A DNA stretch of 64,000 nt from Acidomonas methanolica. Lineage in GTDB: Bacteria > Pseudomonadota > Alphaproteobacteria > Acetobacterales > Acetobacteraceae. The position numbers and the translations under genes are program-made. The notes under the pieces are model-generated. The model worked only from the letters and a program-made list of their open reading frames with translations. It had not been told where the DNA came from and did not search any database. This document shows positions 24,954-40,647 of this stretch, piece after piece; position 1 is the first letter of the stretch; the number at the start of each line of letters is the position of its first letter. The stretch spans positions 124,001 through 188,000 of the forward strand of contig NZ_SLZN01000005.1 in the NCBI RefSeq assembly GCF_004346035.1, in the 5' to 3' direction.

Positions 24954-26747
24954 CTACGGATCGTACCCCGCCACCCTGCCTGCCGTGCCCGTCATCAACA
25001 TCCGCCGATCCTGCGCCTCACAGCGCCAGTTCCGCGCATCCTTCACGTCGCCCTGTCCCATATACCGCGCCATCTGCGGAAAGGGACAAAGCGGCATGGT
25101 GCGGTCCGTAACGGGGCGCGGGCGCGTTTCGTCCTCATGCGCGGCGTCCAGACGCAGGGGCGGACGTGATTTCCTCACCCAATCATCCAGCGACGCCAGG
25201 ATATCGGTCCCGGGGTCCGCGGCGCGCGCCGCCAGACCGGATTGCCCGAACACGCTCGGCCCCGGCCCGCCCCCGCAATGCGCCATTCCCGGCACGGCGA
25301 AGAGGACGGCATGTTGCCTGAGCGTTTCGTATCCCCCCAGCCGCCGCGCCAGCCCCCGGTAGAAGTTCAGCGTCCTATACGGCGTGATGTCCCCGTCCGA
25401 CAGCCCGTGATACAGGATCAACCGATGCCCCGAACGAAAGAACGCATCGAGCGCGCTTTCATCCGTGCCGTCTCCGGCCCCGACGGCGCGATGCAGACGG
25501 GCGAGCATTTCATCCGTCACCACGGCATGCAGCCCGCCGCCTGCCCCCGCAAACCGGAGACCGGGATCATCGACGCCGCCGAGATAACGCATGGTCTGAT
25601 TGCCGTAATACCAGGCCTGAGGCTGGGATGCGGGGTCATGCCAACCACCCGGCACGGTCGAGAAACCCAGCCAATAGCGCATATTGTCGACCATCGGCCC
25701 GCCCTGAGCGAGACCCGAAGCCGGGAACCCCGGATAGACCGCCCGGCCCGACCCATCCGTCATGGCCGAAAGCGCGCTGTCGAGCGCCTGAGCCTGCGCC
25801 GTCGTGAAGCACTGCCCGTCATCGTGCCCGGCGCATCGAGGAAGATCCCGGACCGCGCTGAAATCGCACCGCGCCGGATTCTGGATCAGCCCGTCCTTCA
25901 CGCCGTCCGCGGTATCGCAGCGGTCGAGAATGACCTTGTCCGCAAGATGCCATTGCTCATCCGTCAGCGCCGCATCGGGCGCGCGCATCTGCGCGAGCAC
26001 CCCCGCCAGGGCGGAAATTGCCTCGCCCTCGATATCGAAATAGGGATCGCCGGCCAGAATGCCGTCGAAATCGTCGGGATAGCGTTCCGCCTCGACGAGC
26101 GCCTCGCGTCCGCCGTCGGAACAGCCGGAAAAATAGGCGAAGGCCGGGCGGCTTCCATAATAGGCGGCCGTCCACTGGCGGGCCCGCTCCGCCAGTTGGT
26201 GAACGGCGCCGAAGAAAAACGCCGCCTGTTTCGCATGATCAGGCTCGCCATCGGCCGTCCGCGCCCAGCTCGATTCTGAAACCGACCACAAACGCGGAGA
26301 CGGGCTGGGTTTCGCGACATGACCATCATCGGTCGCCCAGATCGCATATCCACGCGCGACCCATCCCAGCGGAGCGGCCCCGAGGAAAACGGTTCCGCAA
26401 TTCCCTCCGCAACCCACCTGGAGAATCTTTCCGTTCCAGCGTTGCGGAAGCAATCCGGCAAAATTCGCCCGGCCACTTTCATGAGTCCCGAGCGCCATGT
26501 CGCCGGTCACGACGCAGAAAATCGCGCCGTCCACGTTCCGTATTTCAGCGCCCCTTTCCGGCATGTCGAGATTTCTCGCGCCCCAGTCGCCGATGCCCCG
26601 AATGCGCGCGTCCTGCCCGACGATCCCCCCGAGGGACGCCGGACTGCACGCGGTGGCCGCCCTCGCGCCATGCCCCGTCACCAGACCCGCGAACAGGATA
26701 CCCACTGCGGCAAACAGGCCCTTGCGCGTCGTTCTCCACCGACTCAT
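24954..26747 (-). CDS. tannase/feruloyl-esterase family hydrolase
   Basis: 597 residues with a signal peptide (KGLFAAVGILFAGLVTGHG, cleavage near ARAA). The nucleophile motif is FSGCSDGGREALVEAERYP, and the typical tail VPGMAHCGGGPGPS carries the catalytic histidine. QVGCGGNCG and the CDxxDGVKDGLI calcium-loop segment are also present. The family hydrolyses esters of aromatic acids (gallate, ferulate, hydroxybenzoate). It starts 36 bases after the TonB receptor and is probably cotranscribed, so it may release an aromatic acid, possibly a pyridine carboxylate, for uptake. Substrate not determined. Confidence 0.85.
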   Translation of the reverse strand: MSRWRTTRKGLFAAVGILFAGLVTGHGARAATACSPASLGGIVGQDARIRGIGDWGARNLDMPERGAEIRNVDGAIFCVVTGDMALGTHESGRANFAGLLPQRWNGKILQVGCGGNCGTVFLGAAPLGWVARGYAIWATDDGHVAKPSPSPRLWSVSESSWARTADGEPDHAKQAAFFFGAVHQLAERARQWTAAYYGSRPAFAYFSGCSDGGREALVEAERYPDDFDGILAGDPYFDIEGEAISALAGVLAQMRAPDAALTDEQWHLADKVILDRCDTADGVKDGLIQNPARCDFSAVRDLPRCAGHDDGQCFTTAQAQALDSALSAMTDGSGRAVYPGFPASGLAQGGPMVDNMRYWLGFSTVPGGWHDPASQPQAWYYGNQTMRYLGGVDDPGLRFAGAGGGLHAVVTDEMLARLHRAVGAGDGTDESALDAFFRSGHRLILYHGLSDGDITPYRTLNFYRGLARRLGGYETLRQHAVLFAVPGMAHCGGGPGPSVFGQSGLAARAADPGTDILASLDDWVRKSRPPLRLDAAHEDETRPRPVTDRTMPLCPFPQMARYMGQGDVKDARNWRCEAQDRRMLMTGTAGRVAGYDP

Positions 26748-26783: not shown

Positions 26784-29183
26784 TCAGAAGCCTGCGCTGA
26801 TCGTTCCGAAAAATTCACGCGGCGCCCCGATCTGGAATGACTGGTAGTCTCCCGAAAGCGGATTTCCGGACTCGCCCATATTGGAAATATAAACCGTATT
26901 GAAAAGATTGTAGATATTGAACGACGCCGTGACGTTTTTCAGAAATCCGAATTTTCCGAAATGATAGCCGGCCCCCAGATTGGCGAGCCAGTAACTCGGC
27001 ACATGCGTGTCGTTCGTATAGCTGAGATACCGTTTGCCCATGTAGATCACGTCAATATGGGCAAACGCGCCCTTGTACTGGTAGGACAGATTGGTCTTGT
27101 ACATCAGCTTCGGATAATTGACCTCCTGCTTTCCCTTGAGATCATAGAACGTTCCGTTTTCCATCAGGTTGGAGCCGTATTTCGAGCTGTTATAGCTGAT
27201 GCTGTTCGTCAGGCTGAGACCATCGACAGGACGCAGCGTCAGCGTGCCGTCCACGCCGTTCATCTCCACATTGCCGACATTGCGCAACAGGCTTTCGATA
27301 TTGACGAGATTGCCCTCCGTGACCGACGCGAGACGATTGTGGAAATCCGTGTGATAGAGCGTCAACAGGCCCGTCACGATCGGAGAATTATAACGATACC
27401 CCCCTTCGAAGACATAATCCGTCTCCGGCTTGAGCGAATTCTTCTCTTCATTAAAAATGGCCTGCGTCGCCGAACCCCAGGGCGACGCCTGATTATATCC
27501 GGCCTCGGGGAATACGCGCATGTTCTTGGAGAAGTCGAAGAAGAGTTCCTGCCGGTGCGTCACACGGTAATTGATGCTGAACTGGGGAAGAAATGCCGCG
27601 TCGTTCCGCAGCGTGCCCGATGGCGGCGTCCCGCCGGAATAAGCGGGATCGTTCTCCAGCACGTTGCTCGTCCCCTTGAAGAGAAGCGAACGGAACCCGG
27701 CATTGATGCGAAGATTCGGGAGAATCGTGACCGTGTCCTGAAGATGTGTCTGGACAGTATCGTTCACATAATGCAGACGCCAGGCCTCCGCGAACGCCGG
27801 CGGCAGGCTGTTCCGGGGATTGAGCGGCGCGCCCTCTCCCAGAACGGGCTCGTTATAGAAAGTATAGAACGGCTCATAGGCCCCATGTTCATACCAGACG
27901 CCCACATCGATCTTGTTCCGCGCAATCGTATACACGAAGTCCGACGTCAGGCCGCCACGCTGGGAAAGGCTGCCATTATCCTGCTCGGCCAGCGGCGCTC
28001 CGCTCGGCGAGGCGATATAGGGATTCGTCCAGTAGGCGTTGAACCCCTTGCCCTGGCCATACAGCGTGGTCGTCCAGTTCAGATGCGACGTCAGATCCGT
28101 CCGGAGTGTCGCGCCCCCGAAATAATCATGGCTCGTCGCGGGACCGTCATAATACGACGCATCCACAGGATCGGAGACGCGGTTGTAACCCGCGGGCAAC
28201 GCCCCGCCGGGAAGACCCGCGCCGTACAGGGCGGTCCGATAGGCTGCGGCATAATCGGGGTAATAATAGGAGACCCTGGACCCGAGCTTGTGCAGGTTTT
28301 CAAGCGAAAGATCGGCATAGGTATCGGCCGTGGCCTGATCCCAGTCGAAGAAAGCCGTCAGCTTCGTGCTTTCACCGAAAGGTTGAACCAGCTTCGTATT
28401 GACCTGCTGGAGGAACTGACTCCCGCTGCCCTTCCATTTCTGCTCGTCGCCCCGGCTGTACGACACGAAGAATTTGGTGCCACTGCGGTTGAGACGGCCG
28501 CTGTCGATACGAACGAATGTCAGATAGCTGTCATAGCTGCCGAAGGTCTGCGACACCTTGCCGCCGAACGTATCCGCCGGGTCGATCGAGTGAAACTGCA
28601 CCACCCCGCCGAGATTGCTCGACGACGGAACGTTCACGGCGCCCGCGCCCTGGGAAACGTCGATGGACTGGATATTCTGTTGCGAAATCGCATTGATAAC
28701 GTTCAGGCCCTGGGCGCTTCCATAACTCTGGAGCCCCAGCGGCATGCCATCCAGCGTGAACCCGAGCTGGTCCTGCGAGAAACCCCGCATGAGAAAACTC
28801 TGGGACCACAGATCGATGCCGAGAGGATCGGCGGAGTTATAGGAGATGCCGGGCATGGACCCCAGCAGTTTCAGCGGATTCGTTCCGGGAACCGATTGCG
28901 CCATCATCGACGCGGTCATCGTCTGCACCTGACGGGTCGCGCCGCGTCCGATCACGCTCATTTCCTCGGCACGCGGGATGACGGGGACATGCCGGCGCGG
29001 CCGGGGCGCCACCCCGCCTGTCGGCGTCGGCATGGGCGTCGTCGCGTGGACCGGACTCGCCCCGCGAGTTCGCGCGGACAGATGGCTCTTCGCGTGGGTC
29101 GTCCGCGACGTCGTAGCGTATACGCTATTCATTTGCGCGCCCGTCATCAGTGCCACGCCGGCAAGCAAACTGATTTTTTTCAT
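26784..29183 (-). CDS. TonB-dependent outer membrane receptor
   Basis: 799 residues. The ATG at 29183 has AAGGGGAG before it and opens a signal peptide (MKKISLLAGVALMTGA). A plug domain follows (PLKLLGSMPGISYNSADP, SFLMRGFSQDQLGFTLDGMPLG, NLGGVVQFHS), then a 22-strand barrel ending in GAPREFFGTISAGF with terminal aromatic. There is no extra N-terminal signalling domain and no sigma/anti-sigma pair adjacent. It sits between nicD and the esterase. A GTATAC operator matching the nicA and nicC sites lies upstream, and a perfect copy lies inside its first 70 bases, suggesting nicotinate-linked control rather than iron control. Confidence 0.9.
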   Translation of the reverse strand: MKKISLLAGVALMTGAQMNSVYATTSRTTHAKSHLSARTRGASPVHATTPMPTPTGGVAPRPRRHVPVIPRAEEMSVIGRGATRQVQTMTASMMAQSVPGTNPLKLLGSMPGISYNSADPLGIDLWSQSFLMRGFSQDQLGFTLDGMPLGLQSYGSAQGLNVINAISQQNIQSIDVSQGAGAVNVPSSSNLGGVVQFHSIDPADTFGGKVSQTFGSYDSYLTFVRIDSGRLNRSGTKFFVSYSRGDEQKWKGSGSQFLQQVNTKLVQPFGESTKLTAFFDWDQATADTYADLSLENLHKLGSRVSYYYPDYAAAYRTALYGAGLPGGALPAGYNRVSDPVDASYYDGPATSHDYFGGATLRTDLTSHLNWTTTLYGQGKGFNAYWTNPYIASPSGAPLAEQDNGSLSQRGGLTSDFVYTIARNKIDVGVWYEHGAYEPFYTFYNEPVLGEGAPLNPRNSLPPAFAEAWRLHYVNDTVQTHLQDTVTILPNLRINAGFRSLLFKGTSNVLENDPAYSGGTPPSGTLRNDAAFLPQFSINYRVTHRQELFFDFSKNMRVFPEAGYNQASPWGSATQAIFNEEKNSLKPETDYVFEGGYRYNSPIVTGLLTLYHTDFHNRLASVTEGNLVNIESLLRNVGNVEMNGVDGTLTLRPVDGLSLTNSISYNSSKYGSNLMENGTFYDLKGKQEVNYPKLMYKTNLSYQYKGAFAHIDVIYMGKRYLSYTNDTHVPSYWLANLGAGYHFGKFGFLKNVTASFNIYNLFNTVYISNMGESGNPLSGDYQSFQIGAPREFFGTISAGF
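29114..29127. promoter_or_regulatory. perfect GTATAC palindrome inside the TonB receptor gene
   Basis: TAGCGTATACGCTA is a perfect 14-bp palindrome located 57-70 bases inside the receptor reading frame. It is the best copy of the motif found at the nicA/nicR junction, before nicC and upstream of this receptor. An intragenic operator could act as a roadblock or loop with the upstream site. Confidence 0.5.
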
Positions 29184-29366
29184 ATCGAACTCCCCTTGGG
29201 CGGCACGCGCGCCAGAATTCAGAACGACCATCCTTGGCTGATCACCACAACCACTTTGCTCTCGCACGATTTTCTCCTGCGCGCCCCACCGGACACGCCC
29301 GGATACCGCACCGGCGTCGTCGAATATGATTGTTATGCCGAACGTTCCTTATATGCAATATAATTA

Positions 29367-29380
29367 ATGTGTATACGCGA
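29367..29380. promoter_or_regulatory. GTATAC operator upstream of the TonB receptor
   Basis: On the minus strand it reads TCGCGTATACACAT. It begins directly after the nicD stop and lies about 185 bases upstream of the receptor ATG. The half TCGCGTATAC is identical to the nicA operator. The surrounding 100 bases are AT-rich and likely contain the receptor promoter. Confidence 0.5.
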
Positions 29381-29381
29381 T

Positions 29382-30200
29382 TTAATTCGCAATTCCTTCC
29401 ACCGCCTCCCCTTCCACAGCCTCGATGAACCCGGAGAGATTGTCCCACGGGATCATGTGACCGGCCTCCGCGACATGCGTGATCTGAATGGACGGGTTGA
29501 GCCCGAGGATTTCCGCCTCGTCCTCCGGCAGGATGACGCCGCCGCGCGTGGCGACCATGAGCGTCACAGGCAGGTCGAGAAACGGCAGATCCTGATGAAT
29601 ATCCTCGGTGTGAAACTTCTCGAAGGAGATCCGGGTCGCCAGCTCGTCGCAGGTATGCAGCCATTCGGCCCGCAGCGCGCGCTGCTCCTCGGTCCATGTC
29701 GGACAGAAACGCTTCATGTCCTCCGCCGTCATACCGCCCCGGGCGAGTCGGATCGAGTCCGTATACCATTCGAGCTTCGCGGGATAGGGACGCCTGCCGG
29801 GCCCGCTGACGGGCGGATCGACGAGGACGAGCCGCGCCAGAGCCCGGCTGTCCGCCCGCGCCAGACGAATGGCGATCCGCGCCCCCATCGAATGCCCCGT
29901 CAGGACGACGTCGGAAAGGCCGAGCGCATCGATGAAGCCGCGTCCGTCCGCGGCGTAGCTGTCGAGATCATAGGAAAGATCAGGCCCCGTCGATGACAGC
30001 CCGCGCCCGCGCACATCGAGCACATAGACGTCATGGCGCGCCGCCAGGGCATCCGCCACGAAACCCCATGTCACGGCGGGGCTGGTGATGCCGGGAATGA
30101 GGACGAGCGGCTGCCCCTCCCCTCCATAGCGGAGATAATGCTGGCGAATGCCGTTGGCATGGACATTCGCGCCATAAAGAAACCGGCTGTCGCCTGTCAT
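29382..30200 (-). CDS. nicD: N-formylmaleamate deformylase, alpha/beta hydrolase
   Basis: 272 residues. Catalytic Ser in TGHSMGARIAIRLA, an acid in the PEDEAE region and His in EAGHMIPWDN. The N-terminal LVLIPGITSPAVTWGFVADAL and DVRGRGLSS segments match NicD, which cleaves N-formylmaleamate to maleamate and formate. It begins 12 bases after nicE and is the last gene of the nic operon. The next gene (TonB receptor) has its own upstream operator. Confidence 0.9.
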   Translation of the reverse strand: MTGDSRFLYGANVHANGIRQHYLRYGGEGQPLVLIPGITSPAVTWGFVADALAARHDVYVLDVRGRGLSSTGPDLSYDLDSYAADGRGFIDALGLSDVVLTGHSMGARIAIRLARADSRALARLVLVDPPVSGPGRRPYPAKLEWYTDSIRLARGGMTAEDMKRFCPTWTEEQRALRAEWLHTCDELATRISFEKFHTEDIHQDLPFLDLPVTLMVATRGGVILPEDEAEILGLNPSIQITHVAEAGHMIPWDNLSGFIEAVEGEAVEGIAN

Positions 30201-30212
30201 CTCAATTCCCTT

Positions 30213-30968
30213 TCAATATGCGCCGGACAATAACGCCCCCGCGCCGGGCGCAACAGGTTCGAGGCCGAGCGCCTTCAACATCGCGTAGGTCGTGGCGATC
30301 GCGGCGGTCACGACCGGCTTGCCGGTCATGGCCTCGACCTTCGCCACAGCGGGGAGGGACGGCATCTGCACGCAGGCGGAGAGCACGATCGCATCCGCAT
30401 CCGCATGGTTCAGCCCCATCACGATCTCCGGCAACCGCGCGGGATCATGCGCGGCGACATCCAGATTATCCGGGATTTCCAATGCCACATGATCGATGAT
30501 TTCGTAACCTTCCGCGGCGATATATTCGACGACGAGGTTCGTCAGCGGCTTCATATAGGGCGCCACCAGAACGATCTTCCGCGCGCCGATCACCCGAAGC
30601 CCCTCCACGAGCGCGCCCGCACTCGTCACGACCGGCGTGGGCGCGCCGTTTTCCACCGTCCGCTCATGAAGACGCGCCTCCGAGCGGCGATGATAACCGA
30701 GCCCCATCGCCATGATGGCGACGAGACACGCATATCCCATCACATCCACCCGCGCGTCGCTCAGTTCCAGCGCGCAGCGATCGGACTCCGCGTCCATGGC
30801 GGCGAGTTCGTCCTTGCTGACGGTCTTCATGCGCATGCGGCTGGAATGGAACAGGAAACGCTCCGGACGCACGAGCTGACGCGCCGCCAGCATGGCGGGA
30901 ATTTCGGTCTCCATGGTGACGTTGGAGCTCGGGACGATCTGCCCGATCCGATAGAAAGACTTTGTCAT
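30213..30968 (-). CDS. nicE: maleate isomerase (Asp/Glu racemase family)
   Basis: 251 residues. It begins YRIGQIVPSSNVTMETEIPAML, the family's substrate-binding start. The two catalytic cysteines are in MGYACLVAIMAM and VLSACVQMPSLP. NicE converts maleate to fumarate, the last step before central metabolism. Flanked by nicF (19-base gap) and nicD (12-base gap) in the operon. Confidence 0.92.
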   Translation of the reverse strand: MTKSFYRIGQIVPSSNVTMETEIPAMLAARQLVRPERFLFHSSRMRMKTVSKDELAAMDAESDRCALELSDARVDVMGYACLVAIMAMGLGYHRRSEARLHERTVENGAPTPVVTSAGALVEGLRVIGARKIVLVAPYMKPLTNLVVEYIAAEGYEIIDHVALEIPDNLDVAAHDPARLPEIVMGLNHADADAIVLSACVQMPSLPAVAKVEAMTGKPVVTAAIATTYAMLKALGLEPVAPGAGALLSGAY

Positions 30969-30987
30969 GACAGAACACTCCGCACAG

Positions 30988-31623
30988 TCAGGAATTGGGC
31001 AGACGGCCGAGAAGGGTGGCGAGATCGATCACATCGCCGCATTTCTGGGCCATGTCGAAGAGATTGGCCTCATGCGGCCCGATCGCGCGATCGCCGACGC
31101 AGTCGGACACCACGACGGGACGGAACCCCGCCTGCATCGCGTCCAGCACACTCGCCCGCACGCAGCCCGAGGTCACGCACCCGGCGACAACGATGGTCCG
31201 CACGCCATGCGCGACATACCAAGCGGCAAGAGGCGTGCCCGAAAACGCTGAAGGCACGGTCTTGCGGACTACATATTCCCCCGGTTCGGGCGTCAGTTCG
31301 GGCACGATCGCCGAGAGCGGATTATTTTCCGTCAGGCCGAGCAGCGTCGGCACTTTCAGCGAGAAAATATTCGCATCCGCCCCGTCATCGGCGAAGACGA
31401 TCCGCGAATGGGCCGTCTTCCAGCCGAGCCGCCTGGCCGTCGCCAGAAGGACCGTCGTCCGCTGGATCGCCTCGCCGATATTTCCGCCGCCGAACGCCTC
31501 CGGATCAGCGAATCCATTGACGAAATCGACGATCAGCAGGCCGATCGGCCCGACGATCCCCATTTCGGTCCCGAAACCCTGCGCCTTGTAGCGCGCTTCG
31601 TCACGCCGCATGTCCATGCTCAC
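30988..31623 (-). CDS. nicF: maleamate amidohydrolase (isochorismatase family)
   Basis: 211 residues. Catalytic Asp in LLIVDFVNGFADP, Lys in VVRKTVPSAFSGTPL and Cys in VVAGCVTSGCVRAS give the isochorismatase-fold triad. NicF hydrolyses maleamate to maleate and ammonia, between NicD and NicE in the route. The start overlaps the nicX stop (ATGA). Confidence 0.92.
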   Translation of the reverse strand: MSMDMRRDEARYKAQGFGTEMGIVGPIGLLIVDFVNGFADPEAFGGGNIGEAIQRTTVLLATARRLGWKTAHSRIVFADDGADANIFSLKVPTLLGLTENNPLSAIVPELTPEPGEYVVRKTVPSAFSGTPLAAWYVAHGVRTIVVAGCVTSGCVRASVLDAMQAGFRPVVVSDCVGDRAIGPHEANLFDMAQKCGDVIDLATLLGRLPNS

Positions 31624-32654
31624 CCCTCCACGAGCCTGCCGTCACGCACCACCGCCACGCCGTCGAGTTTCACGGTGCAGTTGCGCATGGGGATGTCGAT
31701 GTGACAGGCGGTGTCGCGCGTTCCGCCCGCCTCGTTGTTCGGCCCGGTGGACCAGAGAAAATTCCCCGCACAGGCGCGCGCATCCATGCCGATGCTGGCC
31801 TCCCGATCGTAGAATCCCAGGACCGACCAGTGCGCCCGCCTCTGCAACCCCCAGCCGATATGCGACACCGCGAAGACCTCCGGGTCGCCGAAACTCTCCA
31901 TGTAATCGCGCAGATGGTCCGCCTCGTACCCGCCCTCGATGGACCGGACATAGCCGCCGTCGAGCCGCAGGGTCACGGGCGCCGTGACATAGGATTTCTG
32001 CGGCAGAAGGATGTCGCCGGGCGCCAGCACGATCGTTCCCCGGGCCGAACCCTCGTTGGACCATGTCGCCAGAAACCCGCTCGGCCAATGATCCCAGCGG
32101 CCCGGCGCATCCACGAAGCCATATTCCTCCAGCATCGGATAATCGCCCAGCGCGAAGCTCACATCGGTCCCCGCGGCGGAGGTGACACGCAGGCTCCGCG
32201 CGGCCCGCAACCTGGCCGACGCCGCCAGAACGCGCGTCCGGTCCTCCGCCGTCGGCACCATGCGCACGAGAATTTCCGGCGGCTCGACGGCGAGCAGAAT
32301 GCGGCCGCCCGCCGCCAGGATCTCATGCTGCTCGGCGGAAAACAGGAGCGTCATGAGATCGAGCACGAGATCGCTCGCCTTGAGCATCTCGACCGCCGCG
32401 CGATTGCCCGTCAGCGGCGTCGTGCCGACATAGGCCAGCGGATCGCGCGAGAGGGAGACCCCGCCATTCGTCGGCTGGAGATCGAGGCGATTGGCGATCG
32501 CCCCCCTGTCCCGGACCGCGAGAATCGCGCAACGCAGCGTCTGCCGGTTCGTGTCGGCCGACGTCAGAAGCGTCACCGTCTGCCCGGCTTCAAGCCGGCA
32601 AAGATCGAGGACCTGACGCCACGCCCGGACCAGTTCGTAATCGCTCACGCTCAT
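31620..32654 (-). CDS. nicX: 2,5-dihydroxypyridine 5,6-dioxygenase
   Basis: 344 residues. It resembles NicX, an extradiol-like Fe(II) ring-opening enzyme unrelated to classical extradiol dioxygenases and related in fold to M29 aminopeptidases. Conserved segments are SRDPLAYVGTTPLTG, EGGYEADHLRDYMESFGDP, VSHIGWGLQRRAHW and CHIDIPMRN with histidine and acidic iron ligands. It converts 2,5-dihydroxypyridine to N-formylmaleamate. The ATG at 32654 overlaps the permease stop (ATGA). The long open frame upstream of this ATG is only a shadow of the permease gene. Confidence 0.92.
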   Translation of the reverse strand: MSVSDYELVRAWRQVLDLCRLEAGQTVTLLTSADTNRQTLRCAILAVRDRGAIANRLDLQPTNGGVSLSRDPLAYVGTTPLTGNRAAVEMLKASDLVLDLMTLLFSAEQHEILAAGGRILLAVEPPEILVRMVPTAEDRTRVLAASARLRAARSLRVTSAAGTDVSFALGDYPMLEEYGFVDAPGRWDHWPSGFLATWSNEGSARGTIVLAPGDILLPQKSYVTAPVTLRLDGGYVRSIEGGYEADHLRDYMESFGDPEVFAVSHIGWGLQRRAHWSVLGFYDREASIGMDARACAGNFLWSTGPNNEAGGTRDTACHIDIPMRNCTVKLDGVAVVRDGRLVEG

Positions 32655-33952
32655 GGAGCTGTCTCCTTGCTGCCACGCGGGGCCAGGATCTGGTTCAGAA
32701 TGATCGCGGCCAGGCTGGCCGTGATAATTCCCCCCAGAGTGACGCCGCCGATATGAAGGGTGAAATCGGCCGAACCCGCGACGAGCGCGGCGCCGACCGG
32801 AAAGAGTGTCGAAGGGCGTGAAAAATCGACGCGATGCTCGATCCACACCCGGACCATGGTTGCCGCGATCAGCCCGAACAGACCGAGCGCCAGCCCGCCC
32901 AGCACCGGCTCGGGAACGGCATGCAGCACCGCGCCGACGAACGGGGAAAACCCCAGCAGCACGGCGAGCCCTCCGGCCACGGCGAAGACCAGCGTCGAAT
33001 AGACGCGCGAGATCGCCATGACGCCGATATTCTCGACATAGGTCGTCACGCCCGTGCCGCCCAGAGACGCCGCCAGAATCGTCGCCAGCCCGTCTCCGAG
33101 GAAGGCGCGCCCCGTCAGCCCGTCGAGCGGCCGTTCCATCATGGCGCCGATGGCCTTCAGATGCCCGAGATTTTCCGCGACGAGCACGATGGCGACAGGC
33201 GCCAGCATCATCACGGCGTGCGCGGAAAAACGGGGCCTGACGACATGCGGCCACCCGATCAGCGGCGCATGCGCGATCGCCCGGAAATCGACGGGCGGAG
33301 CCATGCCGAAACCATTCGCCGCCACCGCATAGACCGCGCTCGACAGCACAAGCGCCAGCAGGACCGAAAGCCGTCGCACCACAACACTTCCATAGACCGC
33401 GAAACCCGCCATGCAGAGCAGCGCGAGCAGGCCGCAGGCCGTTCCCACGTCGCCGTGACCGAGCCCGCGCGTCGCCGTCGGCGCGAGATTCAACCCGATC
33501 GCGGCCCCGATCGCGCCCGTGACCGAAGGCGGCATCAGCCGTTCGATCCAGCCGCTTCCCGCCCCCATCACGACGACCCCGATCAGCGCGTACATGACCC
33601 CCACGGCCAGAATGCCGCCGCATGCCAGCGCGATGCCGGGATTGACGCCATGCCCCGCATACCCCGTCAACGCCACGACGAGCGCGATGAAGGAGAAGCT
33701 CGACCCCAGATAGCTCGGCACGCGCCCGGCCGTGACGCCGAAGAACAGGAGCGTCCCGAGGCCCGAGCCCAGCAGCGCGACATTGGGGTCGAACCCCATG
33801 AGCAGCGGTCCGAGGACGTTTGACCCCGTCATGGCAAGCAGATGCTGACCGCCGAGGGCGAGACATTGCCAGACGCCGGGATGCTCGTCGACGGCCACGC
33901 CGCCCTGCCCTTCGGCCCGCCGCCAGATCGGAAACCGGCCCCGCATCGTCAC
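32651..33952 (-). CDS. NCS2 (uracil/xanthine permease) family transporter, candidate nicotinate importer
   Basis: 433 residues with about 14 membrane segments. Family marks are QHLLAMTGSNVLGPLL in the first helix, the AENLGHLKAIG segment with the conserved glutamate, and TTYVENIGVMAISRVYS. NCS2 proteins normally import purines or pyrimidines with protons. Here the gene overlaps nicB upstream and nicX downstream by ATGA, so it is embedded in the nicotinate operon. No MFS-type NicT is present, so I infer that it carries nicotinate or 6-hydroxynicotinate. The substrate is not proven. Confidence 0.85.
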   Translation of the reverse strand: MTMRGRFPIWRRAEGQGGVAVDEHPGVWQCLALGGQHLLAMTGSNVLGPLLMGFDPNVALLGSGLGTLLFFGVTAGRVPSYLGSSFSFIALVVALTGYAGHGVNPGIALACGGILAVGVMYALIGVVVMGAGSGWIERLMPPSVTGAIGAAIGLNLAPTATRGLGHGDVGTACGLLALLCMAGFAVYGSVVVRRLSVLLALVLSSAVYAVAANGFGMAPPVDFRAIAHAPLIGWPHVVRPRFSAHAVMMLAPVAIVLVAENLGHLKAIGAMMERPLDGLTGRAFLGDGLATILAASLGGTGVTTYVENIGVMAISRVYSTLVFAVAGGLAVLLGFSPFVGAVLHAVPEPVLGGLALGLFGLIAATMVRVWIEHRVDFSRPSTLFPVGAALVAGSADFTLHIGGVTLGGIITASLAAIILNQILAPRGSKETAP

Positions 33953-36900
33953 TGCCCTCCCCGCCCCGCGTGACCCGACTGCCCGCGCAACACCGCAATC
34001 CGGCCCTCCAACCCCTCCCAGCCCGGCCGCCCCGGCGCATGGGCCGCCCGGAGATAGCGCAGGAGCGACGCGATCTGCCGGTCATCCAGCACCCCCCTGA
34101 ACCCGGGCATTTCGCCGCGCCCCCGCTGCCCGGCATAGGGAGCGCCGTCGAGAATGACGCGAATGAGATTGTCGGGCCGATCCTCCTGAAGATTGCTGTT
34201 GAGGGCGAGATCGGGTCGCGCACCGTCCATATGCCGCGCCTCCCCCTCATGGCAGGCGGCGCAACTCCCCGCGAAGAGCCGCGCCCCCTGCGGCTCCCGC
34301 AGGGCGGCCAGGGCCATGCGGGACAAGCGGTCATCGGCGTTCGGCCCCGCATTCCCGTCGCGCCCATGCCCCTCCGTCAGATAAACGGCGATGGCCCTGA
34401 TATCCTCGTCGGGCAGCACGCGCATTTCCTCGACGACCGGGGCCATCGGGCCGAGCGCGGGTCCATGTTCCGCGTCGTGACCGCTCCGCAGATACCGGAC
34501 CATCGCCTCCACGGTCCATGGCACCGGCGCCCGCGAGACCGCGCCAAGGGGCGGCGCGACCCATCCATCCGCCTCACCCCCGGCGAGATAGGCCGAGCCG
34601 CTCTTCTCCGCCCCCAGACCGTTGCGCGGCGTATGGCAGCCGGAGCAATGGCCGGGACCATCGACCAGATAGGCCCCCCGGTTCCATTCGGCGGACCGGG
34701 ACGGATCGGGGCGATAGGGGTTCGGATCGTGAAACAGCAGGTTCCATCCCGCCATGGCCGGACGAAAACCATAGGGAAAGGCGAGTTTCGTCGCCGGAAC
34801 CGCATTCGATATCGCCGTCCGCGTCATCAGATAGGCATAGAGCGCTTCGAGATCGGCATCCGACATGCGGGCGAAGGAGGTATAAGGGAAGGCCGGATAG
34901 AGATGATGCCCGTCCCGGCTGATGCCCTCCCTCATCGCCCGGACGAAGGCGGGAAAGGACCAGCGCCCGATGCCGGTTTCCTCATCGGGCGTGAGGTTCG
35001 TGGTGACGATCTGGCCGAACGGCGTATCCATCATCCGGCCGCCCGCATTCGGAATCCCGCCCGGCGCGGTATGGCACACGGCGCAGTCCCCCGCGGCGGC
35101 GAGAAGCCGGCCCCGCTCGATCGCCGCCGTATCGAAAGACGCCGCCTCGGGCCGCCGGACCGGAGCGAGCGCCGGGCGAACCGGCAGGGCGGCGGAGGCG
35201 GTCTGCACCAGAGCCGTCGCAACGACTCCCAGCTTCAGGAGATCGCGCAGGGAGCGCGTCCCTCCCGGTCTGCCCCCCGCCGCCCCACCGCCACGCGGCA
35301 GGGCCAGGGGCAGGGGCAGCGGAACAGGCTCCTCCGACGGCCCGACCCACACGCCGAGCGCCCGGTCCAGCGCGGGCCTGACCCGCGCCGGAGTCAGGGG
35401 CAGTTCCCGGAAGCGCACCCCCGTCGCATCGAAAAGAGCGTTGGCGATGGCCGCGGCACTCGGAACGGAGGCGGATTCTCCAACCCCTAGCGGCGGATCG
35501 TCTGGTCGATCCATCAGAAGCACGTCGATATCGGGCAGCTCGGCGAAGGTCAGAATGGGATAGGTGCCCCAGTCCCGGCTCGTGACGCCGGTGGCGTCGA
35601 ACGTCACCTCCTCCTTCAACACGCGACTCACGGACTGGACGACATTGCCGTGCACCTGATGCCGCACCCCGGCGGGGTTGACCATCATTCCCGCATCCTG
35701 CGCGATATGGACGCGCAGGACGCGCACCACGCCCGTCAGCCGATCGACCTCCACATCCGCGATCCAGGCCGCCCAGGCCGCCGCCACGCCCGGAAACGCA
35801 CCATGGACATAAACCGCATAGCCGACGCCCCGTCCCGTCAGCACGCGGGCCGTCCGGTCGATGGCCGGCCTCGGCCCGTGGCGCATGACCCATCCCGCCC
35901 GGTCGGCGAGCGCGCGCAGCATGGCGCAAGCGCGCTCGTCCCGCAGGAGATCGAGGCGATAGGCCAGCGGATCGGCCCCGGCCAGCGCCGCGAGTTCGTC
36001 GACGAAGCTGTCATGCGCGAAGCTGTTGGGCATCGCCGACACGCCGCGCAGCCAGGAGGCCCTGGCGATCGGCGGCGTGTCATGCACGATCACGCGCGCA
36101 TTGTCATAGGCATAGGGCGGGATGCTGGTGCGGTCGCCCATCTGGGTGATCGTTGGCCGATCGGCGTCCATCCGCCGCGTCAGAACGAGCGCGAGCAGCG
36201 GCGAGACGTTCGACGGATACCGCGTCTGGAACGCATAGGCGACCGGCCTGCCCCGCGCATCCAGCGCGCCGCTGACCTGCATGAGCTGCGCCGCGCCCTT
36301 GGGCTCCCAGACATGCTCCTGCCGCCGCGAAAGCTGCACGCGCACGGGCCGCCCCACGGCGCGGGAAAGGAGCAGCGCATCGCCGCACACGTCATCGGCG
36401 CAGTTGCGTCCGTAACATCCGGCGGCCTCATGCCGGAGAATCTCGATCCGGTCTTCCGGAGTCTCCACCAGACGCGCCAGATCGCCACGCAGCATGTGCG
36501 GATTCTGCGTCCCGGACCAGACGAGCGGCCGCCCGTCCCGCCAGTCGGCCACGGCGCAGGACGGGCCGATCGAGGCATGCATCTGGTACGGCCAGAGATA
36601 ATCCGCTTCATGCCGCGTGACGGCGCCGGCGATCGCCGCATCGACATCGCCCCGGTCGAGCAGCCTGCGCGGCGTGGAGGGATTGGACCGCAACGCCGCA
36701 TCGAGATCGGACAGATCCGGCATCCCGACCTGCCGCCAGCGGATGACGAGCGCCTCCGCCGCCGCGACGGCCTGCTCCTCGCGCTCCGCCACGACGCCGA
36801 CGAAATCACCGATCGTCACCACATCGACGATCCCCGGCAGATGGGAGATCGAGTCCCGCTCCACGCCGATCAGACTTCGCCCGACCTGACGACCATGCTC

Positions 36901-37590
36901 GACCCCATGATAGGGCGGCCGCACCACGCGGCCATGCAACATGCCCTCCACCCGCACGTCATGGACATAGACGGCCCGCCCCGTCGCCTTGTCGGGAATA
37001 TCGATTCGGGGCACCTCACGCCCGACCACGCGATAGGCCGCGCGCGGCTTGAGCGCCACGCCCTCGTCGAGCCGGACGATCCGTTGCCGCCCCGCGAGCA
37101 GCTCCGCCACGCTCGCCACGCGCCGGCGCTCCTCCGCCCCGCCGCTCCAGACGATTCCGTCCCGGACATGCAGGCCGCAGACCTCGACCCCATGAGAAGC
37201 CGCCGCGAGAGTCTTCAGCGTCTCGCGCGCCTGCGCCGCCGCCTTGCGCAGGGGAATCGCGGCGACCTGAATCGTTTCACTCGCGATTGTCGCCCCCTGG
37301 TCGGGCGTGGTGCCGGTATGGCCCAGTTCCATGCGGACCCAGGAGAACGGCACCTCCATTTCCTCCGCCACGATCTGCGCCAGAGCCGTGGCGATCCCCG
37401 TCCCCAGATCGACATGCCCGCAATAGCCGACGACGCGCTCATCCGCCCGCAGCACCACGAACACGTCATCCGGCGCATTGCTCAGATCCCGATGGACCGC
37501 CCCCATGCCGTGCGGCTGCTCCGGCGGCCGCACGACCGCGATGTAGCCGCCCGCATCCTCGTGACGCCGAAGGAGTCCGAATCCGCTCAA
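33949..37590 (-). CDS. nicB: nicotinate dehydrogenase large subunit, molybdopterin domain fused to triheme cytochrome c
   Basis: About 1213 residues. Residues ~1-760 are the xanthine-oxidase-type molybdenum domain (VDLGTGIATALAQIVAEEM, GTQNPHMLRGDLARLV, HEAAGCYGRNCADD, and PPLGVGESASVPSAAAIANA with the catalytic Glu). The C-terminal ~400 residues carry three haem c sites: CAVCH (~834), CSGCH (~980) and CAACH (~1108). With NicA it hydroxylates nicotinate to 6-hydroxynicotinate and sends electrons to the respiratory chain. I propose TTG 37590, overlapping the nicA stop as TTGA, because no ATG lies in a suitable place; the frame is open to 37662. A leader helix before the cytochrome part may anchor it. 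Confidence 0.9.
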   Translation of the reverse strand: MSGFGLLRRHEDAGGYIAVVRPPEQPHGMGAVHRDLSNAPDDVFVVLRADERVVGYCGHVDLGTGIATALAQIVAEEMEVPFSWVRMELGHTGTTPDQGATIASETIQVAAIPLRKAAAQARETLKTLAAASHGVEVCGLHVRDGIVWSGGAEERRRVASVAELLAGRQRIVRLDEGVALKPRAAYRVVGREVPRIDIPDKATGRAVYVHDVRVEGMLHGRVVRPPYHGVEHGRQVGRSLIGVERDSISHLPGIVDVVTIGDFVGVVAEREEQAVAAAEALVIRWRQVGMPDLSDLDAALRSNPSTPRRLLDRGDVDAAIAGAVTRHEADYLWPYQMHASIGPSCAVADWRDGRPLVWSGTQNPHMLRGDLARLVETPEDRIEILRHEAAGCYGRNCADDVCGDALLLSRAVGRPVRVQLSRRQEHVWEPKGAAQLMQVSGALDARGRPVAYAFQTRYPSNVSPLLALVLTRRMDADRPTITQMGDRTSIPPYAYDNARVIVHDTPPIARASWLRGVSAMPNSFAHDSFVDELAALAGADPLAYRLDLLRDERACAMLRALADRAGWVMRHGPRPAIDRTARVLTGRGVGYAVYVHGAFPGVAAAWAAWIADVEVDRLTGVVRVLRVHIAQDAGMMVNPAGVRHQVHGNVVQSVSRVLKEEVTFDATGVTSRDWGTYPILTFAELPDIDVLLMDRPDDPPLGVGESASVPSAAAIANALFDATGVRFRELPLTPARVRPALDRALGVWVGPSEEPVPLPLPLALPRGGGAAGGRPGGTRSLRDLLKLGVVATALVQTASAALPVRPALAPVRRPEAASFDTAAIERGRLLAAAGDCAVCHTAPGGIPNAGGRMMDTPFGQIVTTNLTPDEETGIGRWSFPAFVRAMREGISRDGHHLYPAFPYTSFARMSDADLEALYAYLMTRTAISNAVPATKLAFPYGFRPAMAGWNLLFHDPNPYRPDPSRSAEWNRGAYLVDGPGHCSGCHTPRNGLGAEKSGSAYLAGGEADGWVAPPLGAVSRAPVPWTVEAMVRYLRSGHDAEHGPALGPMAPVVEEMRVLPDEDIRAIAVYLTEGHGRDGNAGPNADDRLSRMALAALREPQGARLFAGSCAACHEGEARHMDGARPDLALNSNLQEDRPDNLIRVILDGAPYAGQRGRGEMPGFRGVLDDRQIASLLRYLRAAHAPGRPGWEGLEGRIAVLRGQSGHAGRGGQ

Positions 37591-38060
37591 GGCGACATCC
37601 CCGCCGGGTCCAGCCCGCAGGCCCGCCGCGCGGCGCGCAGGATTTCCACATGCGTGCCGCACCGGCAGAGCGAATAGCGCAGCGCATGGCGGATCGCCGC
37701 CTCATCGGGCGCGGGCGTCGCATTCAGCAGCGCGCGGATCGTGATGATCATCCCGTTGAGACAATATCCGCACTGCGCGCCCTGTTCGACGATGAAGGCC
37801 TCCTGAACCGGGTCGAGCCGTCCGTCAGCGGCGAGCCCTTCGAGCGTGACGATCGGCCTTCCCTCGGCCGCGGCGCAGGACACGGCGCAGGCCCGCGCCA
37901 CGCGCCCCTCGATCAGCACCGCGCACGCCCCGCACTCCCCCAGCCCGCACCCGTATTTCGGACCGCGCAGCGCGAGGTCGTTGCGCAGGACATGCAGGAG
38001 CGGCGCGTCGCCCGGCACGTCCAGACGATGACGCCGCCCGTTGACGGTCAGTTCGATCAT
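37587..38060 (-). CDS. nicA: nicotinate dehydrogenase small subunit, [2Fe-2S]
   Basis: 157 residues. The N-terminal plant-type cluster ligands are in KYGCGLGECGACAVLIEG and the C-terminal cluster in GYCLNGMIITI and CRCGTH. This is the two-cluster small subunit of molybdenum hydroxylases such as isoquinoline 1-oxidoreductase and NicA. First gene of the nic operon, 65 bases from a GTATAC operator and an adjacent promoter. ATG 38060 follows GGAACGACAC. Confidence 0.92.
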   Translation of the reverse strand: MIELTVNGRRHRLDVPGDAPLLHVLRNDLALRGPKYGCGLGECGACAVLIEGRVARACAVSCAAAEGRPIVTLEGLAADGRLDPVQEAFIVEQGAQCGYCLNGMIITIRALLNATPAPDEAAIRHALRYSLCRCGTHVEILRAARRACGLDPAGMSP

Positions 38061-38124
38061 GTGTCGTTCCGAATCGAGCACATTACGACCTCGATCTCAT
38101 TCATACGGGGAAAATCCGCCATTC

Positions 38125-38138
38125 TAGGGTATACGCGA
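38125..38138. promoter_or_regulatory. GTATAC operator between nicA and nicR
   Basis: TAGGGTATACGCGA, an imperfect palindrome centred on GTATAC. On the minus strand it begins one base after the proposed nicA -10 box and so would cover the transcription start. It also lies about 85 bases before nicR, so one site could control both directions. Confidence 0.6.
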
Positions 38139-38139
38139 T

Positions 38140-38169
38140 ATGATAGGCGCATGTCGCGCGGCAAAACAA
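38140..38169 (-). promoter_or_regulatory. probable nicA promoter
   Basis: On the minus strand TTGTTT (38169-38164) and TATCAT (38145-38140) are separated by 18 bases. The operator follows immediately, so a bound MarR-type repressor would block initiation. Confidence 0.45.
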
Positions 38170-38221
38170 GACCTGATTCGCCCGGATTGAGCGCCCGCCC
38201 GTTTCGGGCTACCCTTCCGGA

Positions 38222-38725
38222 ATGAACAGGAAGCCTGGCCGCCGATCCTCCAGACCCGATTCCCCGTCAGCCGGCGCTCCGGCGAATGGCGCGCCAGAGG
38301 AAAATAGCGATTACGTTCTTTCCGAGCAGATCGGCTATCTGCTGCGCAGAGCCTATCAGCGCCACACGGCCATTTTCCAGGCCGCCATCCCCGACGACAA
38401 GCTGACCTCCGTCCAGTTCGCCGTCCTGACGACCGTGCGCGACCATCCGAACTCGCCGCTCGTGCTCGTGGCACAACGGACCGCCATCGATCACGCCACC
38501 CTTCGCGACATCGTCCTGCGCCTGAAGCGCCGTGGCCTCCTGCACGTCGTCGCGGATCATCAGGACCGGCGCCAACGCCTGCTTTCCCTCTCCCCGGAGG
38601 GCACGCGACTCGTGGAAAGCGTGATTCCGGACGCCAGACGGATCACGGAACTGACCCTCGCAAACCTCAGCGCCTGCGAGCGGCTCGCCGCCATAGAGGT
38701 GCTCCGCAAGCTCTCGCGGGACTGA
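38222..38725 (+). CDS. nicR: MarR-family transcriptional regulator
   Basis: 167 residues. Winged helix-turn-helix: SVQFAVLTTVRDHPNS, then LVAQRTAIDHATLRDIVLRLKRRGLLHVVADHQDRRQRLLSLS with the typical DxRxRxLxLT wing. It sits divergent from nicA and upstream of nicC, as a local regulator should. In Pseudomonas, NicR is the MarR repressor relieved by 6-hydroxynicotinate; I transfer that role by family and position. Confidence 0.85.
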   Translation: MNRKPGRRSSRPDSPSAGAPANGAPEENSDYVLSEQIGYLLRRAYQRHTAIFQAAIPDDKLTSVQFAVLTTVRDHPNSPLVLVAQRTAIDHATLRDIVLRLKRRGLLHVVADHQDRRQRLLSLSPEGTRLVESVIPDARRITELTLANLSACERLAAIEVLRKLSRD

Positions 38726-38764
38726 CGCGGCGCGCCGGATCGTATCGATTCCAGAGCAATCCGC

Positions 38765-38812
38765 TTGACAGCCCCGCCACCTTGCGCTGCACTATAAATA
38801 GCGTATACACTA
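38765..38812 (+). promoter_or_regulatory. nicC promoter and GTATAC operator
   Basis: TTGACA lies at 38765 and TATAAA at 38793; the 22-base gap is longer than usual, so the exact -35 is uncertain. The operator TAGCGTATACACTA (38799-38812) follows TATAAA at once. This is the same geometry as at nicA, where the operator starts one base after the -10 box. Confidence 0.5.
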
Positions 38813-38865: not shown

Positions 38866-39984
38866 ATGTCGGAAGTTTCAAGAATCGGTATCGTCGGCGC
38901 GGGCATGGGCGGCATCGCCGCCGCCGCCCTCCTGCAAAGGGCCGGCTTCGACGTCATCCTTTTCGATCAGTCGCCTGCCTTCTCACGCCTCGGCGCGGGC
39001 ATCCAGTTCGGCCCGAACGTGATGAAAATCCTTCGCCGCCTGGATCTCGAAGCCCCGCTGGAGGCGATGTCCTGTCTGCCCGACTACTGGATGAGCCGCA
39101 AATGGGACGACGGCGAGGTGCTCGCCGCCATTCCGCTCAATGCCGAGCGCGAGCGTTATCACGCCCCTTACATCACCATTCACCGTGGCGACCTCCAGCA
39201 GAAAATGCTCGAAGCCGTCGCCACGGACCGGGTCCGGTTCGGCAGGAAACTCGTTACCTTTCACGATGACGGGCAGGCCGTCTCCCTCGAGTTTGAGGAC
39301 GGCACGCGGGACAAGGTCGACATCCTCATCGCGGCGGACGGGATCAACTCGCGTATCCGCGAGATTCTCTTCGGGCAGGAAGAGCCTGTCTACACCGGCT
39401 GGCTCGCGCATCGCGCCATCATCCCCGGCGCGGTGGCGCGAGATGTCGGCGCCGATCTCAACGCCAAATGGTGGTCGGAGGACCGCCATATCGTCTGCTA
39501 TTACCTCGACAGGGCCCTCGACGAATTCTACCTCGTAACCGGCGAACCGGGAGAATGGACCAGCGCCGGCGGCCAGATGTCCAGCACGCGCGACGCCCTG
39601 CGCGAGTCCTTCCGGGGCTATCACCCCATGGTCCAGGCCTATATCGACGCCACGGAAGACGTCACGAAATGGCCCCTGAAAACACGCGAGCCGCTGCCCG
39701 TCTGGCATCGGGGACGTGTCGTTCTCCTCGGCGATTCCTGCCACCCGATGAAGCCGCATATGGCGCAGGGCGCCGCCATGGCCGTCGAGGACGCCGCCGT
39801 GCTGACGCGCTGCCTCACCGTCCTCGGCACCGATGACCTGGACGCCACGTTCCGCCGCTATCATGCCCTGCGCAAGGACCGCGCCACGAAAGTCCAGTCC
39901 ATCTCCAACGCGAACACATGGCTGCGCGCACCGGAAGATCCGTTCTGGTGTTACGGGGACGATGTCTACGACATGACCATATGA
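38866..39984 (+). CDS. nicC: 6-hydroxynicotinate 3-monooxygenase
   Basis: 372 residues of the class A flavoprotein monooxygenases. FAD motif GIVGAGMGGIAAAALLQRAG near the start, the DG-type segment IAADGINSRIRE, and LLGDSCHPMKPHMAQGAAMAVEDAAVL near the C-terminus. NicC decarboxylates and hydroxylates 6-hydroxynicotinate to 2,5-dihydroxypyridine using NADH and O2. I start at ATG 38866; the frame is open upstream to 38782, but that region holds the operator. It is transcribed on the plus strand after nicR with its own promoter. Confidence 0.92.
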   Translation: MSEVSRIGIVGAGMGGIAAAALLQRAGFDVILFDQSPAFSRLGAGIQFGPNVMKILRRLDLEAPLEAMSCLPDYWMSRKWDDGEVLAAIPLNAERERYHAPYITIHRGDLQQKMLEAVATDRVRFGRKLVTFHDDGQAVSLEFEDGTRDKVDILIAADGINSRIREILFGQEEPVYTGWLAHRAIIPGAVARDVGADLNAKWWSEDRHIVCYYLDRALDEFYLVTGEPGEWTSAGGQMSSTRDALRESFRGYHPMVQAYIDATEDVTKWPLKTREPLPVWHRGRVVLLGDSCHPMKPHMAQGAAMAVEDAAVLTRCLTVLGTDDLDATFRRYHALRKDRATKVQSISNANTWLRAPEDPFWCYGDDVYDMTI

Positions 39985-40014: not shown

Positions 40015-40647
40015 TCACACGAAGCGGTCGGCTGTGTCGCAGTCGAAAACCGTGCCCGGATTGGAGGAGGCATACACCGCCTTGTCGGTCGGATAGTCCC
40101 TGACGATACCGGCGGCGCCATGGTCGCCGGACAACGCGCCGAGACGGCCGAAATGCTCGCGCCCGAAAAGGACCGGATGGCCGGGCCGCCGATCGAATAT
40201 CGGCCGGCATATGCTCCGAGGACCGGAGAATATGCCGGCAACGGAATGAAAATCCTCGGCGGTGAGTCCCGGCATGTCCGCCGGGCAGATGAAGACTCCT
40301 TCCGCATCCGGCCGCAAAGCGGCGGAGCCGACGGCGATGGAGCGCCCCATACCCTCCGACGCCCGCGCATTGACGCATTCGCGCCAGTCCGGATAGCGTT
40401 TGAGTTCCGCAACGATATCACTCCGATACGGCTCGCCGGTGACGACGATGCGCCGCCCGACATCGAGCCCCGCGATGGTGCGAAGAATATGTCCGATCAG
40501 CGGCAGGCCCCGATAGGGTTCAACGAGCTTGTTCCCCGCCGTAAAACGTCGGGAGGCGCCCGCCGCGAGCAATATGACGTCGAACCTTCGAAGTGACACG
40601 GCGCCCGCCTCGCCCGGTTTAACCACCGGAGAAGGATCGCCCGTCAT
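40015..40647 (-). CDS. mocA: molybdenum cofactor cytidylyltransferase (MocA-like)
   Basis: 210 residues. The nucleotide-binding start is VILLAAGASRRFTAGNKLVEPY, and VFICPADMPGLTAEDF and GHPVLFGREHF follow, as in the MobA-like NTP transferases that make molybdopterin cytosine dinucleotide. Xanthine-oxidase-type enzymes such as NicB use this cofactor. The start overlaps the end of xdhC by 29 bases; a GTG at 40599 is an alternative start. Convergent with nicC. Confidence 0.88.
   Translation of the reverse strand: MTGDPSPVVKPGEAGAVSLRRFDVILLAAGASRRFTAGNKLVEPYRGLPLIGHILRTIAGLDVGRRIVVTGEPYRSDIVAELKRYPDWRECVNARASEGMGRSIAVGSAALRPDAEGVFICPADMPGLTAEDFHSVAGIFSGPRSICRPIFDRRPGHPVLFGREHFGRLGALSGDHGAAGIVRDYPTDKAVYASSNPGTVFDCDTADRFV

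Follow-up and report, generated by a model that had tools for sequence, protein, structure and literature searches.

Why would genes for the breakdown of nicotinate share a regulatory site with a TonB-dependent receptor? This question is raised by a 64-kb stretch (contig positions 124001-188000) of the 3.68-Mb genome of Acidomonas methanolica, an acetic acid bacterium of the Acetobacteraceae (the window, by which the whole stretch is meant). On its minus strand the genes run in the order nicA, nicB, an NCS2 permease gene, nicX-, nicF-, nicE- and nicD-like genes, a TonB receptor gene, and a gene for a tannase-family esterase. On the plus strand, the regulator gene nicR, which is divergent from nicA, is followed by nicC. 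A first-pass annotation, made from the DNA letters alone, had proposed that one operator centred on GTATAC links nicA, nicC, nicR, and the receptor in a NicR regulon. Comparison with other genomes upholds this proposal, because the putative operator is nearly unique to this locus, recurs across taxa, and is conserved in Ameyamaea. It is highly probable, and well supported by comparison, that NicR regulates the receptor operon. The best explanation of the locus as a whole adds to the NicR operators at the nic genes and the receptor operon the import and hydrolysis of nicotinate conjugates, and appears rather probable.

The GTATAC palindrome in the Acidomonas locus

GTATAC cores are found at all four positions where they had been claimed. 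A putative NicR operator in the nicA/nicR divergent region (38125..38138, plus strand, TAGGGTATACGCGA) has two mismatches to the perfect palindrome TAGCGTATACGCTA, and TAACGTATACACGA is present at the same place in Gluconacetobacter sacchari (L035:9904) and Ameyamaea (L034:2789). The putative operator upstream of nicC (38799..38812, plus strand, TAGCGTATACACTA) has one mismatch; it was found in the window scan, and sites upstream of nicC recur in other genomes. The perfect copy (29114..29127, plus strand) is not intergenic but lies inside the receptor coding sequence, whose start ATG is at 29183. It is marked out by the scans, by its conservation in Ameyamaea, and by the rare codon GTA. A weaker putative operator between nicD and the receptor gene (29367..29380, plus strand, ATGTGTATACGCGA) has four mismatches and aligns with TCGCGTATACGTAA in Ameyamaea. 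In other words, three of the four candidates are strong, and the site at 29367-29380 is not claimable by itself.

How unusual are these sites? A scan of the window for matches to TAGCGTATACGCTA with up to three mismatches returned four places, namely the three strong sites and one at 39349 in the nicC coding sequence; the site at 29367 was absent from it. One hundred shuffles of the window gave a mean of 0.45 matches and at most 3, and none of them reached four. Genome-wide, 30 places match with up to three mismatches. With up to two mismatches there are only three, all in this locus. The sole perfect match in the 3.68 Mb is the one at 29114-29127. The bare GTATAC hexamer occurs six times in the window.

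The positions of the sites relative to promoters had been described as zero to one base past the -10 box at nicA and nicC. At nicA the site lies one base past a fair -10 box (TTGTTT-18-TATCAT). At nicC it abuts TATAAA, as claimed, but the TTGACA there is 22 bp away. At the receptor gene the site overlaps the -35/spacer region of candidate promoters. The receptor gene itself had been placed outside the nic operon, a wording that needs narrowing: it starts 198 bp after nicD on the same strand and is thus directly downstream of the operon. Two points were absent from the earlier account, namely the esterase gene adjoining the receptor gene and the intragenic position of the best site.

Why would the best match lie in a coding sequence? 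The perfect site covers nucleotides 57-70 of the receptor coding sequence (codons N19-T24 of MKKISLLAGVALMTGAQMNSVYA-TT) at the end of the signal peptide and includes the signal-peptide codons S20-V21-Y22-A23. An alignment of the nicD-receptor stretch with that of Ameyamaea showed that both sites are conserved, with TCGCGTATAC in the gap. Ameyamaea keeps GCGTATACGC at the same signal-peptide codons though nearby residues differ (MNSVYATT versus INGVYASS). In 16 window genes, GTA makes up 1.3% of 548 valine codons, GCT 3.6% of alanine codons, TAC 31% of tyrosine codons, and AGC 26% of serine codons. The joint chance of the S-V-Y-A codons as written is ~4e-5 (AGC 0.256, GTA 0.013, TAC 0.313, GCT 0.036). 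The DNA word thus seems to constrain the choice of codons. Alternatively, the palindrome is a coding accident of a signal peptide ending in V-Y-A and plays no part in regulation; if either site acts at the receptor, it would then be the weak intergenic one. In line with an accident, V-Y-A is conserved with Ameyamaea and forces part of the core, and the intragenic site is seen only in this pair of genomes. The low joint chance, the retention of GTA-TAC-GC in Ameyamaea, and the lack of any other perfect match in the genome make an accident quite unlikely. Helical phasing of the paired sites was considered as well. The spacings (253 in the window, 243 in Ameyamaea, and 216-217 in Nguyenibacter and its relative G398) have no common phase, and looping is therefore not put forward as established.

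NicR and the recurrence of its putative operator

Which protein would bind the palindrome? The nicR gene (38222..38725, plus strand) encodes a MarR-family regulator of 167 residues (Pfam MarR PF01047, 25.2 bits against a cut-off of 24.6). Its closest relatives among the named loci are in Ameyamaea chiangmaiensis and Ga. sacchari. The closest solved structure is that of BpsR of Bordetella (6pcp/6pco; phmmer 1.6e-37 for 6pcp). According to excerpts of the 2019 structure paper, BpsR contacts 6-hydroxynicotinate (6HNA) via Tyr15, His23, Arg26, and His32 (PMC6837509). In an alignment, these positions are Y31, Y39, R42, and H48 in this NicR, so that three of four residues are identical and His23 of BpsR is replaced by Tyr; the same position is Phe in two other loci (L038 and L041). 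The excerpts also state that NicR of Pseudomonas putida does not conserve the 6HNA residues of BpsR (PMC6837509). Contrary to this statement, NicR of P. putida strain NBRC 14671 (L047) keeps all four (Tyr, His, Arg, His) in the alignment. Strain or alignment differences may account for the disagreement.

In a survey of 98 stretches for sites upstream of nicC, 58 offered a start of the gene that could be used; three rows repeat a contig. The top-ranking upstream site had an exact GTATAC core at 42 of the 58 starts, one core mismatch at 13, and two core mismatches at 3. An exact core with no more than four mismatches in total was present at 41 starts, which belong to acetic acid bacteria, Pseudomonas, Halomonas, and others. 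These 41 sites lie 49-156 bp before the gene, except for one at 248. The words vary by group. For example, Pseudomonas has GAGCGTATACGCTG or a close variant, a Halomonas-type word is CAACGTATACACCA, sites are also present in Variovorax and Herminiimonas, and Acetobacter garciniae has a perfect TAGCGTATACGCTA before nicC. The palindrome stands before nicC across distant taxa and is therefore tied to the NicR/BpsR family, not to this genome. As far as sequence comparison can tell, NicR, a MarR protein of the BpsR type, very probably uses it as its operator. In Herminiimonas contaminans, a perfect TAGCGTATACGCTA (L058:609-622) and a weaker site (795-808) lie near a contig start, with no gene called within 550 bp downstream by a simple gene caller.

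The specificity of the motif was assessed in two sets of genomes. The pattern TNRYGTATACRYNA was found at 20 places in 10 of 13 acetic acid bacterial genomes, and 18 of these places are at nicC, nicA/nicR, or a TonB receptor gene. A backward-read control of the pattern gave 11 places in the same 13 genomes. One of the remaining two places (G252:C170) looks unrelated, and the other (G255:C8) precedes a flavin-reductase/NCS1/FMN (flavin mononucleotide)-monooxygenase gene set. Among 249 genomes of the family, 51 have the pattern. It is found in five of the seven genomes whose NicR is at least 54% identical (at nine places, all but one of which belong to nic or receptor genes), a line that was set after seeing the table.

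Several observations weigh against such an operator. The site at 29367 scores 10.9 with a matrix that gives 17-23 to the nicC and nicA sites, and it has four mismatches. Sixteen of the 58 nicC starts lack an exact core. The pattern is missing in two of the seven genomes with a close NicR, and one of the nine places in these genomes (G168:C1:2805933) is ~31 kb from nicR. Furthermore, of the 242 family genomes that have no close NicR, 46 contain the pattern. With a background of roughly one genome in five, the argument has to rely on position and conservation. With regard to the ligand, the Tyr that replaces His23 of the BpsR pocket means that the ligand of this NicR could differ.

The background in genomes without a close NicR, like the six GTATAC hexamers in the window, also fits the view that an AT-rich word has produced the four sites by chance and that the receptor is under other control. 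None of the 100 shuffles reached the four window matches, and position and sequence are conserved across genera, which makes chance extremely unlikely.

The receptor clade, its esterase, and a second module

The receptor (26784..29183, minus strand) is a TonB-dependent protein of 799 residues with a Pfam barrel (PF00593, 97.4 bits) and plug (PF07715, 39 bits). Its substrate could not be approached by homology, and this route was abandoned, because no solved TonB receptor matched the window receptor or a six-sequence profile of its clade at E 0.001. The best NCBIfam model was the TonB siderophore-receptor subfamily TIGR01783.

A scoring matrix built from the nicC and nicA/nicR sites only was used to scan 60 receptor rows from -700 to +330 of the open frame. 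Five rows scored above 12. They represent four receptors (the window, Ameyamaea twice, G225, and Ga. sacchari C28), all in nic loci, and the next-best row scored 10.6. In G225 the top site belongs to the divergent nicC, and a second site (12.6) is nearer the receptor. The row for L155 covered a neighbouring receptor, so the Nguyenibacter receptor (TBDT1) was judged separately.

The receptors were also placed in a quick maximum-likelihood tree of 61 sequences with support from SH-aLRT (Shimodaira-Hasegawa-like approximate likelihood ratio test) only. The tree omits duplicates (L154, L158, L142), the short L167, and the mixed locus L155; a second tree also omits four very long rows and L163. The window receptor falls in a 13-member clade, called clade A (support 99). 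Ten of the 13 members are in nic loci, or seven of ten when near-copies are merged. The nic-linked members are those of the window, Ameyamaea, Nguyenibacter, G398 (two receptors), G225, three Gluconacetobacter of the asukensis group, and the C3 contig of Ga. sacchari. The Nguyenibacter contig stops short of nicD, so its receptor was counted on the strength of its own site pair, its adjacent esterase gene, and G398, a near-identical relative. The second G398 receptor (G398_2), unlabelled in the tree, was counted since it lies ~6 kb past nicD.

In an out-of-sample test of nic linkage, G398, a near-copy of Nguyenibacter, showed the linkage, and G310 and G331 did not. Four stretches with receptors of other clades (G347, G291, G401, G359) had no nic genes by blastp at 1e-8 except a weak nicD-like match (24%) in G291, and sites scoring above 10 were present in them twice in G359 and once in G401. 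The gene caller was trained on window genes and found few genes in low-GC stretches such as G331. By eye, the G331 stretch around its clade-A receptor (G331:C2, L232/L233), which has no nic genes, contains conjugation-type genes and a nitrilase-like frame.

What accompanies the receptor? An esterase of the tannase/feruloyl-esterase family (24954..26747, minus strand; 597 residues; PF07519, 284.7 bits against a cut-off of 29.8) is encoded 36 bp past the receptor gene, and its N-terminus is signal-peptide-like by eye. Feruloyl esterase B and MHETase are among its closest solved structures. C209-S210, D451, and H490-C491 are invariant in three nic-linked esterase homologues and match the catalytic motif of the tannase family, Ser-Asp-His with flanking Cys. 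Tannase-family esterases stand beside clade-A receptors in three lineages: the window, Ameyamaea, and Nguyenibacter/G398. In Ameyamaea the row consists of receptor, GMC oxidoreductase, aldehyde dehydrogenase, and esterase, and in the Nguyenibacter-like G398 the esterase gene is in the nic operon itself, 16 bp past nicD. Among the 249 family genomes, homologues with more than 40% identity (E 1e-60) are present only in this genome and Ameyamaea, both of which have nic-linked receptors.

The operator also precedes receptors of a second type, clade B, in Ga. sacchari, Nguyenibacter, and Ga. tumulisoli. These receptors were first counted with clade A, from which the trees separate them. A GPH symporter and a GH3 glycosidase accompany all three, and an MGH1/GH63-like hydrolase accompanies two. 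The GH3 gene of Ga. sacchari has its own near-perfect site (TAGCGTCTACGCTA) 30 bp before the likely ATG, and the GH3 protein of Ga. tumulisoli best fits a model for alpha-L-arabinopyranosidase, with a score that stays under the cut-off (579 of 1300 bits). No site and no nic genes lie near a clade-B relative in A. garciniae (L177). At the G255:C8 place, which is in Ga. tumulisoli (L210:7593-11200), two NicR-like sites precede genes for a RutF-like flavin reductase, an NCS1 permease, and an NtaA-family FMN monooxygenase. A chance match there was dropped as an explanation after a second site was found (score 17.7) and the monooxygenase proved to be common with the Ga. sacchari receptor module (68% identity). 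This enzyme matches the NtaA/DmoA family and DszA, not a named pyridine enzyme. Trigonelline was considered as its possible substrate.

What would the receptors import? An excerpt on plant nicotinate conjugates lists an O-glucoside, an N-glucoside, an N-pentoside, and an N-rhamnoside (PMC6776627). Because this list matches the enzymes linked to the receptors, import and hydrolysis of nicotinate conjugates by the receptor and the esterase is proposed; the substrate is suggested by gene neighbours, and the proposal stands at about an even chance. A wider version holds that NicR of acetic acid bacteria controls modules that take in and open plant nicotinate conjugates. Clade-A receptors with an exported esterase would handle acyl esters such as nicotinoyl-glucose, clade-B receptors with a sugar symporter, GH3, further hydrolases, and the FMN monooxygenase would handle N-glycosides, and one operator would lie in the receptor signal-peptide codons here. 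This version is tentative, with its chances slightly below even.

Two other substrates have to be weighed. The receptor may import free nicotinate or another free pyridine acid under NicR control, as a TonB-powered stand-in for a porin, with the esterase incidental. In P. putida, a porin serves nicotinate entry through the outer membrane. The receptor also tracks nic genes in loci that showed no neighbouring homologue of this esterase (G225, the Ga. asukensis group, whose contigs end near, and Ga. sacchari C3). Free nicotinate is nevertheless unlikely as the substrate, since an esterase accompanies the receptor in three lineages and is part of the nic operon in G398, the second receptor type comes with genes for glycosidases and symporters, and a small acid hardly requires active import across the outer membrane. 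The receptor may instead take up a chelate of iron or molybdenum for the metalloenzymes NicAB and NicX, and be co-regulated with them for that reason. The molybdopterin and cytochrome c domains of NicB and the siderophore-receptor model point this way, but the model reaches only 104.6 bits, far below its cut-off of 223.5, and the esterase and glycosidase partners would be left unexplained. A metal chelate is thus very unlikely.

The proposal of conjugate import has to face further findings that do not fit it well. For three clade-A receptors (G331, G310, and the C10 copy of this genome), no nic locus was present in the stretches covered. In Ga. asukensis, Ga. tumulicola, and Ga. aggeris, where receptor and nicC are divergent, the receptors lack any site within three mismatches, and the best that this group offers near nicC is a poorer variant of GTATAC. 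Identity between the two esterase lineages is only 37%. None of the ten locus proteins searched reached a curated NCBIfam cut-off. The C3 contig of Ga. sacchari (L208:9466-17874), where a TetR gene and a second permease-nicX-F-E-D set run divergently to the receptor gene, has no site scoring above 10 in a 19.9-kb stretch. However, since this receptor is in a nic cluster in which no operator was found, the link between receptor and pathway does not rest on the motif alone.

Nicotinate genes, proposed mechanism, and meaning

The nic genes were named by family, gene order, and similarity to other nic clusters, and their products are 41-77% identical to the P. putida L047 counterparts. Nicotinate dehydrogenase would consist of NicA, a 2Fe-2S-type small subunit (37587..38060, minus strand; NCBIfam xanthine-dehydrogenase-type matches, all below cut-offs; 59% identity), and NicB, the molybdopterin and cytochrome c subunit (33949..37590, minus strand; Pfam MoCoBD_1/2 and Cytochrom_C; 54%). 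The NCS2-type permease gene within the operon (32651..33946, minus strand; Xan_ur_permease, 216.5 bits) is followed on the same strand by a nicX-like gene (31620..32654; 52%), which is named by its place and by homologous clusters and is kept in nic clusters. The row continues with genes for a nicF-like isochorismatase-family amidohydrolase (30988..31617; 41%), a nicE-like isomerase of the EutA/arylmalonate decarboxylase family (30213..30968; 77%), and a nicD-like alpha/beta hydrolase (29382..30200; 64%). On the plus strand, nicC (38866..39984; 56%) encodes an FAD (flavin adenine dinucleotide) monooxygenase. Downstream of nicC, an XdhC-family gene and an adjoining open frame (40015-41665) perhaps serve maturation of the molybdenum enzyme NicAB. 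In Acetobacter papayae (L037:9876-18993), homology to nicC, nicB, nicX, and nicD is fragmented, by decay or sequencing error.

How could these parts work together? In the proposed mechanism, NicR would act as a BpsR-like MarR repressor that binds a GTATAC-centred palindrome with a consensus of about TNRYGTATACRYNA. It would occupy the sites of nicA/nicR and nicC and one on either side of the receptor gene start, repressing all of these genes, and the intragenic operator may act by looping or as a roadblock. A product of nicotinate breakdown, probably 6-hydroxynicotinate, would release it. The receptor would then take in nicotinate in conjugated form, most likely as an acyl ester (nicotinoyl-glucose, for example), from which the exported esterase would free nicotinate. 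The NCS2 permease of the nic operon would carry the freed nicotinate inward to NicAB.

Parts of this scheme resemble known systems. P. putida likewise has a MarR regulator beside its nic genes, and strain NBRC 14671 has GAGCGTATACGCTG ~71 bp before nicC. It differs in that its nicAB genes are under NicS, according to an excerpt (PMC10269826). Homologues of the receptor or the esterase were found by tblastn at 1e-10 in none of 68 named loci outside acetic acid bacteria, with flanks of up to 10 kb and often shorter. The same search of 11 acetic acid bacterial stretches (79 searched in all) returned none either, and several of these end just short of the receptor. The precise recognition sequence of BpsR is called unclear in the excerpts of the 2019 paper (PMC6837509). 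The palindrome found with BpsR-like regulators of Variovorax (L048) and Herminiimonas (L058) is a candidate for it. The esterase shares PF07519, Ser-Asp-His, and flanking Cys with tannases, feruloyl esterases, and MHETase, and differs from them in its genomic linkage to nicotinate breakdown. A catabolic regulon that extends to a predicted TonB receptor for a small catabolic substrate is of a known kind, judging from an excerpt on the HutC and HypR regulons (PMC5343134); those belong to other pathways and regulators, whereas here an esterase or glycosidases come with the receptor. In line with the earlier remark that no TonB-dependent uptake of nicotinate is established, nothing relevant to such a route was found among the literature matches listed. 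As far as these matches go, two features look new, namely the reach of the regulon to nicotinate conjugates and an operator placed inside a gene.

If the scheme is true, nicotinate breakdown gains an outer-membrane entry step and a food source, and the operator inside the receptor gene would clearly exemplify how one sequence can be signal-peptide code and repressor site at once. The reading offers a testable substrate for two clades of TonB receptors and a tannase-family esterase, and it gives the NicR/BpsR group a sequence that its members may recognize. In plants, nicotinate is bound up in glycosides and esters, and plants and fruit are a frequent habitat of acetic acid bacteria. Because a putative NicR switch at receptor and esterase genes recurs in relatives, the comparison suggests that acetic acid bacteria harvest bound nicotinate, such as the forms made by plants.

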